Source: Bacteroidota bacterium (GTDB taxonomy: Bacteria > Bacteroidota > Bacteroidia > Chitinophagales > Chitinophagaceae). From it: a stretch of DNA of 32,283 nucleotides. The first letter of the stretch is position 1. Every line of letters starts with the position of its first letter. Made by a program: the position numbers and the translations under genes. Location: positions 1 through 32,283 of the forward strand of contig PSRA01000135.1 in NCBI GenBank assembly GCA_003175695.1, read 5' to 3'. The notes under the pieces were generated by a model. The model was not told the origin of the DNA. It ran no database searches and saw only the letters and a list, made by a program, of their open reading frames with translations. Of this stretch, positions 24,243 to 31,984 are shown in pieces.

Positions 24243-25145
24243 ATGAAACATCTTACCATCATAGAAGCTCCCAGCAACCTCGGACTAATGCAACTCGCGC
24301 CCGCAAGAGAGCCGGGGGTAAGAAGACTACCCGATTGGCTCAGGAGACATTCTTTTCAGGAACAACTTCGGCCGGAAAAAATATTTAAAGTCGAGCCGCC
24401 ACCTTACAGCATGGACTATGATGACGAAGCAGGTGTGAGAAATGCTGAGGCTATTGCAGCTTATTCACAGGATTTGTCGGGGACCCTGAAAACTACGCTT
24501 AGTAAAAAGTCATTTTCGCTTGCAATTGGTGGCGATTGCAGCATACTTATCGGTTGTGGATTGGCGTTAAAATCGACAGGCGATTACGGGCTAATTTTTC
24601 TGGATGGACATACAGACTTCATCATGCCCCACAATTCTTTCACCAAGGGTGCAGCCGGCATGGATCTGGCCATCGTGACGGGACATGGTCATGATAAACT
24701 TTCTAATATTTCGGGAATGCGACCTTATTTTAAAGAAGAACATGTATTCGCGTTGGGTAACCGTTATTATGATGAAAGTTTTGTAGCCCCAATCCGCAAG
24801 TCCGCCATTCGATATTTTGACCTTATGACGATACGTGCAAAGGGTATTGGCAATATTGCCGATGAATTTTTGGTAATGGTTGAAAGACTGCGTCTGGATG
24901 GATTTTGGATTCACTTTGATGTGGATGTGCTTGACAATTCAATTATGCCTGCCGTTGATTCTCCACAAGACGATGGCTTGAGTTATTTGGAATTGAAAGA
25001 GATTTTGCCCTTACTGATCCAATCGCCTCTTTCAGTTGGAATGGACTTGACTATCCTCGATCCGGATTTGGATGTAAGTGGCGAAGTGACAAAAACTTTT
25101 GTGAAAAATATGGTGGAGATTTTTTTTGAAATGTCTCGTACTTGA
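24243..25145 (+). CDS. Arginase/agmatinase-family protein with a cysteine in the metal site
   Basis: A 300-residue ureohydrolase-fold protein. The manganese motifs are present: GGDCS (residues 96-100), DGHTD (Asp121, His123, Asp125) and HFDVDVLD (Asp226, Asp228). In arginase the first motif is GGDHS, and its His is a metal ligand; here it is Cys99. Cys has also been reported in some bacterial arginase-family proteins, from memory, so this may mark a subgroup rather than damage. The usual reaction is removal of urea from arginine or agmatine, or formamide from formiminoglutamate; the true substrate is open. It converges on the ATP-grasp gene (31 bases between the ends), so it is probably a neighbour rather than part of that operon. 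Confidence 0.85.
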   Translation: MKHLTIIEAPSNLGLMQLAPAREPGVRRLPDWLRRHSFQEQLRPEKIFKVEPPPYSMDYDDEAGVRNAEAIAAYSQDLSGTLKTTLSKKSFSLAIGGDCSILIGCGLALKSTGDYGLIFLDGHTDFIMPHNSFTKGAAGMDLAIVTGHGHDKLSNISGMRPYFKEEHVFALGNRYYDESFVAPIRKSAIRYFDLMTIRAKGIGNIADEFLVMVERLRLDGFWIHFDVDVLDNSIMPAVDSPQDDGLSYLELKEILPLLIQSPLSVGMDLTILDPDLDVSGEVTKTFVKNMVEIFFEMSRT

Positions 25146-25175: not shown

Positions 25176-26465
25176 CTACGTCTCGAAATAGCCGACGCTC
25201 CCGCCCACCCATTGCTTATCTTTATTATACCTCACCCCAATCATCTTTCCCTTACTAAGTCTAGCTAAATTGATTGCAAGCCGCGGTCTGGAATCACCAT
25301 CCATCCACATATACATCATCCTTATTTCAACCTTCGCAGGATTATCGGGAGTTTTAATTACATCGGCATATTTCACTTTGCGTTGTAAGATCCAATTTTC
25401 AGGATCCCTGATTTGATTGATATCCGATGGTTGGATATCGATGACAACGCCCTGTCCCGCAAAGGAAAACAAAGGCTTTAATACATAATTTTCCAGGTCT
25501 GCAGGCAATAGTTTGATCTCATTCAGGAAATACGTTTGAGGAACATACGGATGGTGAATAAAAGGCAAAGTGAATTTGCTGATTCGATAAAACCAGTTGG
25601 GATGAGGGATCCATTCCACATCCAGGTTTTGCCGGATATCGACGAAATTTCCCAATTTATCTTTTTGCGATTGCAAGTCATCAAAGATCACCCGGTTATA
25701 GATTCTTTCAACTTTTGTTTTTCTTCCAGATATTGAATGAATATAAAAGAGTTCTTTACCTTCCTGTATCAAATCACTTATACATACAGGTTCGATACCA
25801 AGATAATCCTGTGTGCAATAAAAATCAATCCTTGTTTTTTGCTCATGTGGCTTAATTTCAAGCAGGATCGTGTTCTCAGGAGAAGAATTTCCTACAACAA
25901 TTTTTTTCAGGTCACGCAGGTAAGTATCACGGTTATATCCCTGGAGGTATTGGCTATAATTGGCAGGAATCTCAAAATATTTTCTCAGCAGATCGGGATA
26001 ATAAACCTGGAATGCGAACAGAGTGGGGAAGCCCTGCATTTCGATTAATTGAGGCTCCAGTTCATCCTCCGTATTCAGACAAACTCCAAAATCAAAAGCA
26101 ATAAAATGCGAATGTTTGTTTTCATTCGGAACACGGTCAGCTGCGGGAATTGCTCTCTCAGTCATCTGCCCGAATCGTTCATCGGTGATGATATCAATGA
26201 TCGACTCACAGGCGCTGATCATTTTTTCATTAAAATCCTTTGGAACGAACACTGGCGTTTCGGCTATTCGAAATTCAATGGCGCCCGGATGGAGGCTGTT
26301 TAATTCCTTAAGAAAAGATGCATATTTCTCATTTGTGAATGCTGCGTTGAAAGCATTTCGCAGTGCCGGTACCATATTTCCGATTGTTCCTGAAGATACG
26401 AAATTAGTCTGGAGTCGATAGTCACGGTCGGCAGCATAGCTTAAAGCGACATGATCAGACTTCAA
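25176..26465 (-). CDS. ATP-grasp ligase, partner of the amidotransferase
   Basis: A 429-residue protein with a C-terminal ATP-grasp site: ENYVLKPLFSFAGQGV (Lys330 and a Gly-rich loop at 333-340), WILQRKV (hinge, 359-365), then EIRMMYMW (Glu380, Arg382) and NLARLSKGKMIGVRYNK (Asn399, Arg402) as metal and phosphate ligands. The middle has LEPQLIEMQGFPTLFAFQVY, reminiscent of the acid/amine ligases of the glutathionylspermidine synthetase type. ATP-grasp enzymes activate a carboxylate as an acyl-phosphate and join it to an amine. It starts with TTG at 26465, 11 bases inside the amidotransferase gene, and no ATG occurs until residue 31; the coupling fits two subunits of one enzyme. Substrates unknown. 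Confidence 0.78.
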   Translation of the reverse strand: MKSDHVALSYAADRDYRLQTNFVSSGTIGNMVPALRNAFNAAFTNEKYASFLKELNSLHPGAIEFRIAETPVFVPKDFNEKMISACESIIDIITDERFGQMTERAIPAADRVPNENKHSHFIAFDFGVCLNTEDELEPQLIEMQGFPTLFAFQVYYPDLLRKYFEIPANYSQYLQGYNRDTYLRDLKKIVVGNSSPENTILLEIKPHEQKTRIDFYCTQDYLGIEPVCISDLIQEGKELFYIHSISGRKTKVERIYNRVIFDDLQSQKDKLGNFVDIRQNLDVEWIPHPNWFYRISKFTLPFIHHPYVPQTYFLNEIKLLPADLENYVLKPLFSFAGQGVVIDIQPSDINQIRDPENWILQRKVKYADVIKTPDNPAKVEIRMMYMWMDGDSRPRLAINLARLSKGKMIGVRYNKDKQWVGGSVGYFET

Positions 26466-27288
26466 CTTTGTGGAGATTCTCGACCGCCAAATTGATAAAG
26501 TTGGGAATTATATGTGCGTACGTGGAGCGGATTTTATCGGGATCATTTAAATGCTCAATCATGCTCCTCCATTTTTTTTCGCCATGTTCCGCAATAACAG
26601 TTTTCTTTTTGTCATCTCGCTGCAAATACATGCTCATGCCCGTTGGGTCCGCTTCAGGATGGAATTGCGTTCCCAATATGTATTTATTGAATCGTATGGC
26701 CATGATCGCTCTTTCTAATGGCACATGTGGACGCTCTTTTTCAATGGCAAGAACATGGGCACCCATTTTCCTGAGTCTTGTCTGATCGGGTTGAATAGCT
26801 TGATAATCGCGGCTGTCAACTGCGTAGAATGGATCTCGCAAACCAATGAAAACCGGCTCCTTCACACCTTGCGCCTGCAGGTGGACAGGGAAAATGCCGA
26901 ACGCTGTTGATTTTCTCTTTGTTACTGCAGCGACTTTATAATATCTGCATACTAGTTGGAATGAATGACAGATGAGGAATACATACTTTTTGTCGGAGTT
27001 ATGAATAGATCGATTATGTGCCTGCACTTCCTCCAACCACGTGAAATACAGTTTTTCCCACTCATTGCCTTCGCTTTCGAGAGGGCTGCCGGGACCTCCC
27101 GTTGAGATGAAAATATCAAATGAAAGATCGGGGATTTGCATTTTCCGCCTGACATCAAATTCCTCCCATTCGACCAGAAGCTGATTGTCGGCAGCATATT
27201 GCGTAAGGATTTCTCTAAGGCAACGCATGCCCTGATTGGATTGTCCTTCATAGAGATCAAGAATTGCTACACGAATTTTCCGTTCCAT
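26455..27288 (-). CDS. Class I glutamine amidotransferase
   Basis: A 277-residue protein of the class I (triad) glutamine amidotransferase family. The triad is Cys107 in LICHSFQL, and His210 and Glu212 in GTQFHPE (numbers from the ATG at 27288; two more from 27294). An oxyanion/GGPGSP loop lies near residue 62-69 (STGGPGSP). The nucleophile motif differs from the usual G.C.G.Q, having S at the second glycine. Such domains hydrolyse glutamine and hand the ammonia to a partner synthetase. The neighbouring ATP-grasp gene overlaps by 11 bases and is the natural partner. A TAAGTTTG -7-like element lies at 27303-27296, so close to the ATG at 27294 that the shorter start at 27288 is more likely. Confidence 0.82.
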   Translation of the reverse strand: MERKIRVAILDLYEGQSNQGMRCLREILTQYAADNQLLVEWEEFDVRRKMQIPDLSFDIFISTGGPGSPLESEGNEWEKLYFTWLEEVQAHNRSIHNSDKKYVFLICHSFQLVCRYYKVAAVTKRKSTAFGIFPVHLQAQGVKEPVFIGLRDPFYAVDSRDYQAIQPDQTRLRKMGAHVLAIEKERPHVPLERAIMAIRFNKYILGTQFHPEADPTGMSMYLQRDDKKKTVIAEHGEKKWRSMIEHLNDPDKIRSTYAHIIPNFINLAVENLHKVEV

Positions 27289-27294
27289 ACGCAT

Positions 27295-27649
27295 GCAAAC
27301 TTAAGTTGTTTCGCGGAAACCCTGAATAGTCGACGGTTGACAGTTGTCAGTCTTCGAATTCTGCAACTCGAGTCTATTTGCAGAGAATATATTGAAAGAC
27401 CGACAACCTTCAACTGTCAACACACCATGTAAAGGGAAACATCTATTGGCTGGCAAGCTTTCCACTAAAATAGTAAACCCGTTTATCAATAAGTTTCTAT
27501 CTTTATTCCAGGCCTTTTAACTTTCGTTGGTCTGGTGACCCCGCTCCCGTCCGCACTACTTACTTATCAGAATAATAAGAAAAGATTTATTGATACGCTT
27601 CGTGACTTAATGAGCTTTCATTCCTTTGTTCAATCTAAAATAATCTTGT
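27295..27649. other. Intergenic region with inverted repeat
   Basis: A 355-base region between the divergent amidotransferase and sedolisin genes. It has no coding signal on either strand. Its main feature is the inverted repeat at 27336-27421. On the plus strand, TTCCTTTG about 27630 differs from the -7 consensus at one base, with no good upstream element. Confidence 0.5.
27336..27421. repeat. Inverted repeat with GTTGACAGTTG arms
   Basis: GTTGACAGTTG (27336-27346) is mirrored by CAACTGTCAAC (27411-27421), and the next bases, GTTGTCAGTCTT (27343-27354), are mirrored with one mismatch by AAGACCGACAAC (27395-27406). The arms overlap by a few bases on the left, and the right arm has a short extra piece (CTT). 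The span is about 86 bases. It looks like a decayed dispersed repeat rather than a regulator site. Confidence 0.55.
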
Positions 27650-29242
27650 ATGGCAAAGACAAAAAAACCTTCATCTTCCCCGAAAAGAAAATCGAAAGAT
27701 CCGGTAGAATTAAAAGGAAGTGCCAGAACTGTTCCACCGGGAAAAAATCTGGGAGCCGTCAATTTGAACGAAGTGATTGAAGTGACCGTCCGGCTACGGA
27801 GAAAAAACTCATTGGAAGATTATGTAAAAAAAATGGGCAACGATAATTCGAAAGTGTTAAGTCCGCAGGAGTTTGATGAGAAGTTTGGCGCTTCTGAAAA
27901 CGATATTCATCGCGTGGAAGAATTTGCGCAGCAGCATGATCTTACTGTTGTCGAATCTTCAGTAGCAAGGAGGAGTGTAATTCTAAGAGGTACAGTGCAG
28001 AATTTCTCCAAAGCCTTTGGCGTGTACTTATCCAATTATCAGCACCAGGACGGAAAAGTATTCCGCGGGAGAATGGGAAAAATAAATATTCCATCTGGCC
28101 TGGATGGGATCGTTGAGGGAGTATTTGGTTTGGATAACCGTCCTCAGGCAAGACCCATGTTTCAGATGATAAAAAACAGCGGACATCATTTGAAACAACA
28201 GGCAATGACTATTTCATATAATCCTAACGATGTTGCGAAAGCCTATAATTATCCAAAGGATGTAACAGGTGCGGGCCAGTGCATTGCCTTAATTGAACTG
28301 GGTGGCGGTTTCAGGGCTGCTGATATGAAAAATTATTTTGCAAAACTTGGAATACCTCAACCGTCGATTAAGGCAGTATCCATTGATGGTGCATATAATA
28401 ATCCTTCCACTCCTGATAGCGCGGATGGAGAAGTTGCGCTCGATATTGAAGTAGCCGGTGCGGTAGCAACAGGAGCAAAGATTGTCGTTTATTTCGCGCC
28501 GAATACTGATAAAGGATTTTTGGATGCTATCACCAGTGCGTTGCATGACACGGCAAATAAACCTTCGGTTATATCTATTAGTTGGGGCTCTTCTGAATCT
28601 AACTGGAGCGAACAAGCGATGGAAAACTTCAATCAAAGCTTTATATCTGCCGCTGCTTTGGGTGTTACGGTTGCTGTAGCAGCGGGAGACAATGGTTCTT
28701 CGGACGGACAAACAGATGGTAACGCCCACTGCGACTTTCCAGCCAGCAGTCCATATGCACTGGCGTGTGGCGGCACGCGTTTGGCAAATGGCACAGAAAC
28801 GGTGTGGAATGATGGGGACGGCTGGGCGACAGGTGGAGGCATCAGTGATATTTTTCCGGTTCCCGATTATCAAAAGACGATCAGCCTCCCTGATTCTGTC
28901 AATTCAAAATCGCATAAAGGAAGAGGAATGCCAGATATTGCCGCCAATGCCGATTCTCAAACCGGTTATAATGTGTTGGTAGACGGACAATGGAGCGTGA
29001 TTGGTGGGACGAGCGCAGTGGCTCCCTTGATGGCGGGCCTCGTTGCACTGGCCAATCAAAAACTGAAAAGAAATGTAGGCTTTATTAATCCCAAACTGTA
29101 TGCAGCAAAACCGGCAGTCTTTAAAGACATCAAAGATGGAAATAATATCACGGCGAAGGCTGGGGGATATACGGCTAAAAAAGGATGGGATGCTTGTAGT
29201 GGATTAGGTGTTCCATTGGGATCCGTGGTGGGAGTGCTTTAG
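27650..29242 (+). CDS. Sedolisin (S53) protease, pro-kumamolisin type
   Basis: A 530-residue serine-carboxyl protease. A propeptide occupies about residues 30-180; the catalytic domain starts near residue 185 (QAMTISYNPNDVAKAYNYP). The catalytic Glu261 and Asp265 lie in DGEVALDIEVAG, Asp347 of the oxyanion hole in AAGDNGSSDG, and the nucleophile Ser455 in GGTSAVAPL. FKDIKDGNN and the closing GWDACSGLG are typical of the calcium site. Such enzymes cut proteins best at acid pH, after removal of the propeptide. The N-terminus is short and basic (MAKTKKPSSSPKRKSKDP) with no signal peptide, as in some other kumamolisins, so export is unclear. It is a single gene; a strong shadow frame on the opposite strand is ignored. 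Confidence 0.92.
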   Translation: MAKTKKPSSSPKRKSKDPVELKGSARTVPPGKNLGAVNLNEVIEVTVRLRRKNSLEDYVKKMGNDNSKVLSPQEFDEKFGASENDIHRVEEFAQQHDLTVVESSVARRSVILRGTVQNFSKAFGVYLSNYQHQDGKVFRGRMGKINIPSGLDGIVEGVFGLDNRPQARPMFQMIKNSGHHLKQQAMTISYNPNDVAKAYNYPKDVTGAGQCIALIELGGGFRAADMKNYFAKLGIPQPSIKAVSIDGAYNNPSTPDSADGEVALDIEVAGAVATGAKIVVYFAPNTDKGFLDAITSALHDTANKPSVISISWGSSESNWSEQAMENFNQSFISAAALGVTVAVAAGDNGSSDGQTDGNAHCDFPASSPYALACGGTRLANGTETVWNDGDGWATGGGISDIFPVPDYQKTISLPDSVNSKSHKGRGMPDIAANADSQTGYNVLVDGQWSVIGGTSAVAPLMAGLVALANQKLKRNVGFINPKLYAAKPAVFKDIKDGNNITAKAGGYTAKKGWDACSGLGVPLGSVVGVL

Positions 29243-29336: not shown

Positions 29337-30590
29337 CTAGTCATATCGACGACCCCTGGTATTCCATAAGTCGCGATAAGAAAAGATGAAGGTCATATTG
29401 AAATAATTCTCTTTGATCAAATTTCGATCAGTGGTTCCTTTAACTCCATATTGCAAAATGATATTTGTGGAAAGCGAACTTCTTTTTGCGTTGATTCCGA
29501 TACCAAATGTGCCGCCGACATCATTGATCGATTGACCATACACGTTTAGATAGGACTTATTGTAGTACAATCCGAATTGAAAGAAACTCGTTTCATACAG
29601 ATTGTTATAATAATTCTTTTTATTTGAAATTTCAAAACCCACCGAAGCTCTTTCACTGTTTTGAAGTGCATAATTGAATCCGGAAACATTCAGGGCAGAC
29701 CAATTCTGGAATTTATAATCTGCCACAAAAGTGTATTTCTTGTCCTTCGTAAGAGAAATACCTACCCCATAACTTTTTGGCAGGCTGAAAACTGTTTCGT
29801 TGATAGTTTCATTCTTTAATTGCGAAGAATCGATAGCCAGGATTGTTACACTGTTCTCCGCATGCAAATCAGTTCTGTTGGCAAAAGTTGCACCAAGGGA
29901 AAAATCCCATTTCTTTCCAATCTTGGTGTAGTATTGCATCCCATAATCGAAGTACAGATTGTATATCCACAGATTCCGATTCGTTGACACGTATGTTGCA
30001 GGTAAATTGGGACTTCCCAGGATTGTTTTTTGCGACATGGAGCCGAACAAATAAGAAGAGTTAATCCCAAGTGACAAATGATGAAATAGTTCGTAGGAAT
30101 TAGCCCAGTAGACCCGGTTAACACCTCCAAATCCTTCGGAATAGGAATTCGTTGTTTCGCCATTTGTACCCAGTATGGGTTGTGGCGCATTGAATTCATA
30201 ATTCTGCGAGCTGAATGGAACGAGACCAATACTTGTTCCCCAATGACGGGTTAACTTAATGCCCAATGCAAATCTTCTGAATGCAATATCTGAGGAGTTA
30301 TTATTAGTGGGGTCTATTGGTTTCCCGGTATAGTTGACAAATTTTCCACGAACCCCAATTTCGCCTGCGAAAAATTGATTATCCATGGCAGAGAAAGAAG
30401 CCGGGTTATTGCTGATCAGGCTTCGGCTATTCCTGAAGGCAATACCTGTATTGCCCATTCCGGTAGTTCTGTTGAAATAGCTGTCTTCAATATCACCAAT
30501 AGCTAAAATAGAGTATGGTGAATTATTGGTTTGAGCCGCGAGCCGGCTGCAGGAAAAAAGCAAAACCAATATGCTCAGTATAATTCTCAT
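29337..30590 (-). CDS. Outer membrane beta-barrel protein (FadL/OmpP1-like)
   Basis: A 417-residue outer membrane protein with a signal peptide (MRIILSILVLLFSCSRLAAQ). The mature N-terminus NSPYSILAIGDIEDSYFNRT and MGNTGIAFRNSRSLISNNPA are characteristic of the Bacteroidota family of FadL-like barrels. Many amphipathic strands follow and the last strand ends near FNMTFIFSYRD with an aromatic residue. Ligand unknown. It lies 20 bases downstream of the DUF4270 lipoprotein gene on the same strand, so the two should be co-transcribed and may form an outer membrane lipoprotein/barrel pair. Confidence 0.82.
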   Translation of the reverse strand: MRIILSILVLLFSCSRLAAQTNNSPYSILAIGDIEDSYFNRTTGMGNTGIAFRNSRSLISNNPASFSAMDNQFFAGEIGVRGKFVNYTGKPIDPTNNNSSDIAFRRFALGIKLTRHWGTSIGLVPFSSQNYEFNAPQPILGTNGETTNSYSEGFGGVNRVYWANSYELFHHLSLGINSSYLFGSMSQKTILGSPNLPATYVSTNRNLWIYNLYFDYGMQYYTKIGKKWDFSLGATFANRTDLHAENSVTILAIDSSQLKNETINETVFSLPKSYGVGISLTKDKKYTFVADYKFQNWSALNVSGFNYALQNSERASVGFEISNKKNYYNNLYETSFFQFGLYYNKSYLNVYGQSINDVGGTFGIGINAKRSSLSTNIILQYGVKGTTDRNLIKENYFNMTFIFSYRDLWNTRGRRYD

Positions 30591-30610
30591 TGCGTTATTT
30601 AGTTGTTCAG

Positions 30611-31984
30611 CTAATTCTGAAAGAATGATGAATAGTAGATCTTCAATGAGATCCTGCTAGTATTATTCTTATTGAATTGATCTCCCAGCACTACCCTGTT
30701 AAAAGTTGTGTCACTGGCGGGTGCAGGCATTGTGATCATGATTCCATTCTTTTGGTTATTCTCTGCTCCCAGTTTAATTTGTGTTTTGATGTAGGCAGTA
30801 ATATCATAGGTATACATCGTACTGGCACCATAAGCATAATCCACGATCAAATTACCAAATCCATAAGGAAGTTGAGGTCCGACAGTATTACTGGGATCAG
30901 TAAGCGATAATGCTAATTGGGGCGGCAACATATAAACCGGAGAATAACTTCCTGCTGTTGGTTTCAAAGTAAGTTCAGCCTTCAGTACAGACAGGTAGTC
31001 CGGATAAAGCAACATGTCGGTAATGGTTGGAAATTTGATCTTGGTCATCAAACCTGTATTTCCCTGCACATAGGTGGCATTGCCGGTGAGCGTAGATGAT
31101 ACTTCAGTAGGGACACCCGAGGGTCCAGATGGCGTCAATGGCGCGGTTGGCGTACCCGTTCTGTCATAAGTAATTTGGTTAAACTGGTTCGCTCTGTTGT
31201 TCAATTTGAAATCTATGAATTGGGTAGTATATACCAGGCCCGGCTGGTGATAATATAAGCGCATAATCACGGTATCGCGGAAACCGTAGATTGCACCCAT
31301 GGTGTTGTTGTCGGGATAGATCGAGAAACCTTTGAAATAACCGAGGAATGTATTGGCCGTTTTTACCGTGTCCGATTGATTGAACAGCAGGGTAAATAAT
31401 TCTTTACCCATGTTGTCCGGCAATTTTATCTTCAGCGTGTCATTCAGCTTTTGAGATGTGTAGAAAGAGCGAGGGTGAATCTGTACATCGGAATAACCCA
31501 AAGGATTTGGATCAAATGGCGTAACAGAATTATTGTACCAGGTAGTCTGCACTCCGGGTAGCTGAATTCGCTGTGTTAGCTGGCTTACCACATAGCGTTG
31601 CACCTGCGTAGTATCGCCATAAAAGCTTTTGTTCATCCGAAGGATCAGGGATAATGAATCATAAATTGCCAGGTTACTGATCGTCGGAAGATTAATAGGT
31701 GGCGCAACTTCCAGGATAGTTCGGGATGAAACGGTTCCAAAGAACGGATCCTTGTATCTGCCAAGTAGGATAGAGCCTGTGCCTGCTGTAGGAAATGAGT
31801 CGACCTGAACAGTAGACATATCAACTCTGAAAGTATCTACGGCGACAACATTGGTGGGGTTATTATTGGAAAAAGTAGTCCCGAAATTGATTGAAGGTTT
31901 TTGACAACCCGTGACTATAATAATCACCAAAACGGGAAAGAAAATCCAGATGCTACTTTGCCTCAATGGCCATTTGCTTCTCAT
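30611..31984 (-). CDS. DUF4270-family lipoprotein
   Basis: A 457-residue lipoprotein (hydrophobic stretch IWIFFPVLVIIIVTGC, Cys27). DUF4270 proteins are large, beta-rich and almost confined to Bacteroidota. Recognisable segments include VVAVDTFRVDMSTVQVDSFP, GTGSILLGRYKDPFFGTVSS, DSLSLILRMNKSFYGDTTQV and the DLF-like LGYFKGFSIYPDNN. The protein probably sits in the outer membrane and its role is unknown. It lies 20 bases upstream of the FadL-like barrel gene and both are read leftward. A promoter with a long leader lies at 32169-32199. Confidence 0.85.
   Translation of the reverse strand: MRSKWPLRQSSIWIFFPVLVIIIVTGCQKPSINFGTTFSNNNPTNVVAVDTFRVDMSTVQVDSFPTAGTGSILLGRYKDPFFGTVSSRTILEVAPPINLPTISNLAIYDSLSLILRMNKSFYGDTTQVQRYVVSQLTQRIQLPGVQTTWYNNSVTPFDPNPLGYSDVQIHPRSFYTSQKLNDTLKIKLPDNMGKELFTLLFNQSDTVKTANTFLGYFKGFSIYPDNNTMGAIYGFRDTVIMRLYYHQPGLVYTTQFIDFKLNNRANQFNQITYDRTGTPTAPLTPSGPSGVPTEVSSTLTGNATYVQGNTGLMTKIKFPTITDMLLYPDYLSVLKAELTLKPTAGSYSPVYMLPPQLALSLTDPSNTVGPQLPYGFGNLIVDYAYGASTMYTYDITAYIKTQIKLGAENNQKNGIMITMPAPASDTTFNRVVLGDQFNKNNTSRISLKIYYSSFFQN

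Follow-up and report, generated by a model that had tools for sequence, protein, structure and literature searches.

A stretch of 32,283 nucleotides from a Bacteroidota bacterium (hereafter the window) carries a gene for a class-I glutamine amidotransferase-like protein (GAT) beside a gene for a putative ATP-grasp ligase (LIG), which raises the question of whether the two proteins act together and, if so, in what kind of reaction. The initial annotation read them as overlapping genes for a two-subunit, ammonia-using enzyme. Both open reading frames are present on the minus strand (GAT, 279 amino acids, Table 1; LIG, 25176-26465, 429 amino acids when read from a TTG codon), but neither the TTG start nor the 11-base overlap stands. 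In database searches, alignments of relatives to the TTG open reading frame mostly start at residues 26-31, and the methionine encoded at ATG 26375 is invariant in all 18 diverse sequences of one alignment (A1) and in all 46 closer sequences of another (A2). Therefore, we take the LIG gene to begin at this ATG, 79 bases past the GAT stop codon, which rules out translationally coupled, overlapping genes. In 62 of 80 related loci, GAT directly precedes LIG on the same strand, with spacings of -53 to 414 bases when open reading frame starts are picked mechanically, and it is the nearest upstream open reading frame in 31 of 72 phylum-wide loci. The adjacency of the two genes exceeds chance.

Table 1. 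Coordinates of the GAT and LIG genes and of their putative functional residues in the window.
Feature	Coordinates	Strand	Basis
GAT, class-I glutamine-amidotransferase-like protein, 279 aa, Cys-His-Glu triad	26455..27294	-	Pfam PF00117, E 3.2e-7
GAT Cys109 codon, presumed nucleophile, motif ICHSFQ	26968..26970	-	Invariant in 11/11 and 39/39 sequences
GAT His212-Pro-Glu214, triad codons	26653..26661	-	Invariant in 11/11 and 39/39 sequences
Gap, GAT stop to LIG start, 79 bases	26376..26454	-	Open reading frame positions and LIG start alignment
LIG, circularly permuted ATP-grasp ligase (predicted fold), 399 aa, start ATG 26375	25176..26375	-	Invariant start; AlphaFold; Foldseek
LIG E112-x-Q114, at the presumed place of the metal-binding E-x-N	26034..26042	-	Invariant in A1
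LIG Lys300 of the KPLFSFAGxGV loop, putative ATP binding	25476..25478	-	Invariant; aligned to YgiC KPIFSREGANV (E 0.074)
LIG E350-x-R352 near the C-terminus, presumed functional	25320..25328	-	Invariant

GAT belongs to the class-I glutamine amidotransferases both by the Pfam GATase cut-off, which it clears (30.6 versus 22.8 bits), and by its catalytic triad. The triad had been annotated as intact, and we confirm this: C109, H212 and E214 do not vary in any of 11 diverse or 39 closer sequences, the window's own included. Cys109 is presumably the nucleophile, as in the rest of the family. The usual class-I nucleophile elbow is G-x-C-x-G-x-Q; that of GAT departs from it and reads [IV]-C-[HY]-S-[FY]-Q in all 11 diverse sequences. 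The AlphaFold model of GAT (pLDDT 90.2) was compared with known structures using Foldseek, and the nearest folds are a mixture of class-I amidotransferases, MetA enzymes and hydrolases. Among the closest are two hydrolases of the class-I fold, gamma-glutamyl hydrolase and Arabidopsis gamma-glutamyl peptidase 1 (GGP1), and the matches include 9k7i (E 1e-11), GGP1 chains (TM-score 0.65-0.69) and 4l7q (E 8.5e-9), at 13-16% identity. The neighbours also include the amidotransferases of aminodeoxychorismate, anthranilate and GMP synthases, which feed their synthases, and this counts against reading GAT as a hydrolase.

LIG is much harder to place. The initial annotation stated that the ligase matches no recognised enzyme, and indeed no family model names it: the window protein has no Pfam match, to CP_ATPgrasp_1, CP_ATPgrasp_2, GSP_synth or any other family, and passes no Pfam or NCBIfam cut-off. 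Among 18 aligned LIG members, each family with weak Pfam matches is hit in at most 3 (best E 0.007); these are ATP-grasp families, some of them permuted, and GSP_synth is matched in 1 of the 18, at E 0.026. By its predicted fold, LIG is a circularly permuted ATP-grasp enzyme, barely visible as such from sequence alone. Its AlphaFold model (pLDDT 91.5, pTM 0.90) gave 24 Foldseek matches at E ≤ 1e-3, namely 3n6x, glutathione and homoglutathione synthetases, glutathione-synthetase-like proteins, YgiC, YjfC and the E-64 ligase Cp1B. We take all 24 to be circularly permuted ATP-grasps; normalised by query length, their TM-scores lie in a moderate range of 0.44-0.60. The initial assignment of LIG to the ATP-grasp enzymes is confirmed, but the enzyme is of the permuted type, which is clear only from the fold. 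The order of the conserved residues is also the permuted one, with D95 and E112-x-Q114, presumably the acidic metal site, N-terminal to K300-P, presumably the ATP lysine; all are invariant or nearly so, and the presumed roles are those of the corresponding residues in relatives. When the LIG profile was compared with sequences of solved structures, YgiC alone was reached, and weakly (E 0.074); in that alignment the HPNWFYRISK...YVLKPLFSFAGQGV region of LIG faces the corresponding region of YgiC, with the PxW and KP loops in register. The YgiC/GspS family of circularly permuted ATP-grasps (GspS, glutathionylspermidine synthetase/amidase) carries E-x-N, unlike LIG, which has E-x-Q at what is presumably the same position.

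The initial annotation suggested looking for a conserved third partner, and there are in fact two, GCS2 and ATPg. We clustered the open reading frames of at least 80 amino acids in the window and in 73 fetched regions from 72 other genomes (one genome, G066, contributed two). The LIG open reading frame was recognised in 72 of these 74 stretches, the exceptions being L103, where it is a fragment at a contig end, and L061, where it lies inside a longer open reading frame. An ATP-grasp protein (ATPg, cluster c2) recurs upstream of LIG and is on the same strand in 40 of the 40 loci that hold it together with a LIG open reading frame; likewise, a YbdK-type protein (GCS2, cluster c3) recurs upstream, on the same strand in 39 of 39. 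Alpha/beta hydrolases recur as well, as a looser cluster (c1, here called the esterase) in which 34 of the 48 members share the strand of LIG. The order of genes in shared loci is esterase-ATPg-GCS2-GAT-LIG. In 21 of 72 loci, all four companions are found within 6 kb of LIG on its strand, and in 26 none of the four is; where ATPg and GCS2 both are (37 loci), the esterase is too in 29. The open reading frame next upstream of LIG is GCS2 in 11 of the 72 loci and a predicted amidohydrolase in 10. Of the 80 closest named loci, in which open reading frames were picked mechanically and some contigs end early, 63 have GAT close to LIG (62 of them on the same strand), 13 have GCS2 there and 12 ATPg. 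The genome of the window, which is 78.8% complete, carries GCS2 and ATPg as direct neighbours on another contig (C136), and Longitalea luteola (L111) has ATPg, GCS2, GAT and LIG in a single stretch. The GCS2 of the window's genome is a full member of the YbdK family (NF010039, 1e-159, above the cut-off; PDB 1r8g, 2.9e-48), and weak matches (1.5e-4) place ATPg with the RimK-like proteins.

Two further features of these neighbourhoods were recorded. The predicted amidohydrolase (PF07969; for example L118:7409-9040, and in loci of family f24 such as L085 and L093) often precedes LIG or GAT, and it is found near LIG in 9 of the 80 named loci. In L061 (7537-10137, genome G125), an apparent sodium/solute symporter open reading frame, as judged by eye, reads without a stop into LIG to give 867 amino acids, and in L068 a similar symporter-like gene stops 22 bases ahead of LIG; the G125 open reading frame is possibly a transporter-ligase fusion.

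LIG, GCS2, ATPg and GAT were counted in 247 sampled genomes of the phylum. LIG is present in 73, GCS2 in 79, ATPg in 87 and GAT in 60, or 59 once a partial match (G215, E 2.7e-4) is dropped. Genomes with LIG nearly always have GCS2 (68 of 73) and ATPg (70 of 73), 46 have GAT, and ATPg is present in 58 of the 60 genomes with GAT. GCS2 was undetected in 4 genomes with LIG, ATPg and GAT and in 8 with ATPg, GAT and an alternative circularly permuted ATP-grasp ligase, k2, so it is not essential to every version of the set. We found k2 in genomes that have ATPg and GAT without LIG: in 13 of 13 it sits, by coordinates, between those two genes. The GAT of one such operon (L185) falls slightly under the GATase cut-off (21.2 versus 22.8 bits). 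We counted k2 at E ≤ 1e-158, a cut-off at which no genome has both k2 and LIG, leaving out a weaker relative (1e-83) in G137, which has LIG and no GAT, and remote matches (E > 1e-12) in 54 further genomes, some of them LIG-positive. By sequence, k2 matches 3n6x (E 2.7e-4). The profiles of LIG and k2 (the latter built from 3 sequences) align with an hhalign probability of about 1% and E 0.058, at which the LIG motif IYNRVIFD is nonetheless paired with the k2 motif LYRRLLMN. The two ligases are therefore considered kin by superfamily assignment and position, and not because their sequences match.

Several characterized systems resemble parts of this set. In carbamoyl-phosphate synthetase, as here, a class-I amidotransferase gene (CarA) accompanies an ATP-grasp gene (CarB); the ATP-grasp of CarB is unpermuted and duplicated, and unlike in CarA/CarB, GAT is not obligatory for LIG. 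GspS, YgiC and YjfC share the circularly permuted ATP-grasp fold with LIG, and in GspS, too, ligase and Cys amidase come as a pair. Its amidase domain differs from the class-I amidotransferase fold, whereas the partner of LIG has that fold and is encoded by a separate gene. The eukaryotic-type glutathione and homoglutathione synthetases have the LIG fold as well (1m0w, 1e-12; 3kal, 3e-10), at 10-14% identity over structural alignments, and glutathione synthetase, like LIG, has a gamma-glutamyl ligase as a pathway partner. The presence of a second, RimK-like ATP-grasp in the LIG pathway suggests that LIG probably does not catalyze the step straight after GCS2. YbdK itself is a carboxylate-amine ligase, and its full family member GCS2 is here accompanied by two ATP-grasps and GAT. 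YgiC and YjfC have been named peptidylpolyamine synthetases (PMC12568646), and a published table lists YgiC itself as lacking GspS activity (PMC12506659).

Taken together, the conserved residues, the co-occurrence, the shared loci and the folds are consistent with GAT and LIG being two steps of a dedicated Bacteroidota pathway to a small peptide. GCS2 would couple an amine with a glutamate-like acid, giving a gamma-glutamyl-type amide, to which ATPg would add a second unit. LIG would then phosphorylate a carboxylate of the resulting molecule with ATP and join an amine there, while GAT, as a Cys-His-Glu amidase, would trim or recycle the same molecule by hydrolyzing one of its amide or gamma-glutamyl bonds. 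The amidase half of glutathionylspermidine synthetase/amidase, which trims or recycles its own product, offers a parallel for such a role. The end product may be a peptide of the gamma-glutamyl type or the corresponding amide. The sequence of the reactions, their substrates and the assignment of GAT as a hydrolase and not an ammonia donor are our proposals, and we regard this four-enzyme pathway, with GAT as its hydrolase, as about evenly balanced against everything else that the locus might encode.

The chief competing explanation is the two-subunit amidotransferase of the initial annotation, in which GAT would hydrolyze glutamine and channel the ammonia to LIG, and LIG would use it to convert the C-terminal carboxylate of what GCS2 and ATPg make into an amide, so that a peptide amide akin to glutathione amide results. 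The intact triad and the position of GAT just upstream of LIG fit this explanation, and so does the co-occurrence of GAT with a ligase: all 59 genomes with GAT have a permuted ATP-grasp (LIG in 46, k2 in 13), as against 27 of the 188 genomes without GAT. Since none of the genomes showed GAT in the absence of such a ligase, GAT may supply ammonia. Conversely, no GAT was detected in 27 of the 86 genomes with a permuted ATP-grasp ligase, all 27 being among the 73 with LIG, and 24 of these retain both GCS2 and ATPg. A remote GAT may have escaped the search, and on the tree of LIG (72 rows) the presence of GAT requires 3 changes, compared to a mean of 21.9 when shuffled, so its absence looks lineage-wide and not an accident of assembly. 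Moreover, GAT lies apart from LIG by coordinates in 8 of 8 LIG genomes of family f16, in 2 of 5 of family f34 and in 2 of 6 of the window's own family (G126 and G033), mostly without any other member of the gene set in the contexts fetched. This separation, like the presence of GGP1 among the closest folds, favours GAT as a hydrolase.

The slot of GAT can also be filled by a peptidase. In two operons, those of L050 and L080, the place exactly between GCS2 and LIG, where GAT would otherwise be, is taken by an M29 aminopeptidase (the L050 protein matches PF02073 at 2.4e-14). Close relatives of this M29 protein (at least 59% identity, the query's genome included) occur in 3 of the 247 genomes, all of them LIG-positive and GAT-negative; in the third, G208, the gene lies away from LIG. 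The chance of this pattern for three random genomes is 0.0012, a value uncorrected for kinship and for the fact that two of the three were noticed for sitting beside LIG, which weakens the argument. Another 72 genomes, GAT-positive ones included, have more distant M29 matches (at most 31% identity over the full length, or partial matches of no more than 40%), which were left uncounted. A peptidase in this slot is easier to square with GAT as an amidase than as an ammonia donor. Thus, a functional link between GAT and LIG is supported, but the feeding of ammonia by GAT, as originally proposed, is not, and we consider it a serious possibility that is nevertheless doubtful. On the strength of the LIG genomes without GAT and of M29 in three of them, we slightly favour GAT as a dedicated amidase or peptidase, a role to which we give not quite an even chance. 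In a more specific and more tentative form of the proposed pathway, a gamma-glutamyl tripeptide-like metabolite, widespread in Bacteroidota and new to science, would be made by GCS2 and ATPg and then receive an amide or amine-conjugate cap from the new LIG family, and a dedicated amidase, exchangeable between the class-I amidotransferase fold and M29, would reverse or edit the cap.

It is improbable, in our judgment, that the set tags or caps peptides, the ligases decorating a protein or larger peptide with amino acids that GAT or M29 takes off. Iyer et al. 2009 reportedly proposed tagging systems that combine GCS2-like, RimK-like and circularly permuted ATP-grasp enzymes, which this set recalls, and a peptidase in the slot of GAT would suit such a scheme; however, no recurrent gene for a small protein stood out beside LIG among the 40 largest clusters of open reading frames of at least 80 amino acids. 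That GAT and LIG are mere neighbours without joint function is very unlikely, since their separation in some lineages, the window's own family included, is set against Fisher p values, uncorrected for relatedness, of 7e-19 for LIG with GAT and 3e-36 for GAT with either ligase, and against the few changes on the LIG tree.

We rejected a mobile, viral or defence origin for the locus: pattern-based scans of viral contigs gave no confirmed relatives of LIG or GAT, plasmids gave none of LIG, and PADLOC gave no match. An arginase as a further partner was also rejected. The arginase-family gene at 24243-25145, convergent with LIG, is a singleton cluster in the 73 fetched neighbourhoods and is unmatched near LIG in the 80 named loci, so its place beside LIG is not conserved. 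Its best NCBIfam match, rocF_arginase, scores far under the cut-off (114.9 versus 227.6 bits), and it is therefore possibly another ureohydrolase. Upstream of GAT, at 27336-27421, lies an inverted repeat with perfect 11-base arms, GTTGACAGTTG, 64 bases apart. The motif GTTGACAGTTGTCAG of this repeat has 45 copies (at most 1 mismatch) in the window's genome, compared to 4 for the reversed control, and forms 8 opposed pairs whose starts lie within 100 bases of each other; these repeats are a REP-like family of intergenic elements. Farther upstream, a kumamolisin-like subtilase with an activation domain (27650-29242) lies between GAT and a BamG-like gene. Of the two genes at 29337-31984, one matches BamG above the cut-off and the other is a DUF4270 gene with a weak match to BamH, BamG and BamH being components of the beta-barrel assembly machinery. 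Homologs are found near LIG in 5 (BamG-like) and 6 (DUF4270) of the 80 related loci.

In the open-access full-text literature that we searched, the operon is undescribed, and the results likewise lack the four-gene set, the LIG family and the exchanges of LIG for k2 and of GAT for M29. The article of Iyer et al. 2009 on amidoligases, which lies outside that search, may already mention the neighbourhood and would be the likeliest prior description. Since every component falls within a known superfamily, the set is not categorically new. LIG homologs are nonetheless present in 73 of the 247 sampled genomes of the phylum, yet the window protein lies under all Pfam and NCBIfam cut-offs. The gene set outlines glutathione-type chemistry in a phylum, the Bacteroidota, for which we know of no glutathione-type product, and named cultured hosts such as Longitalea luteola make knock-out and metabolomics tests feasible.
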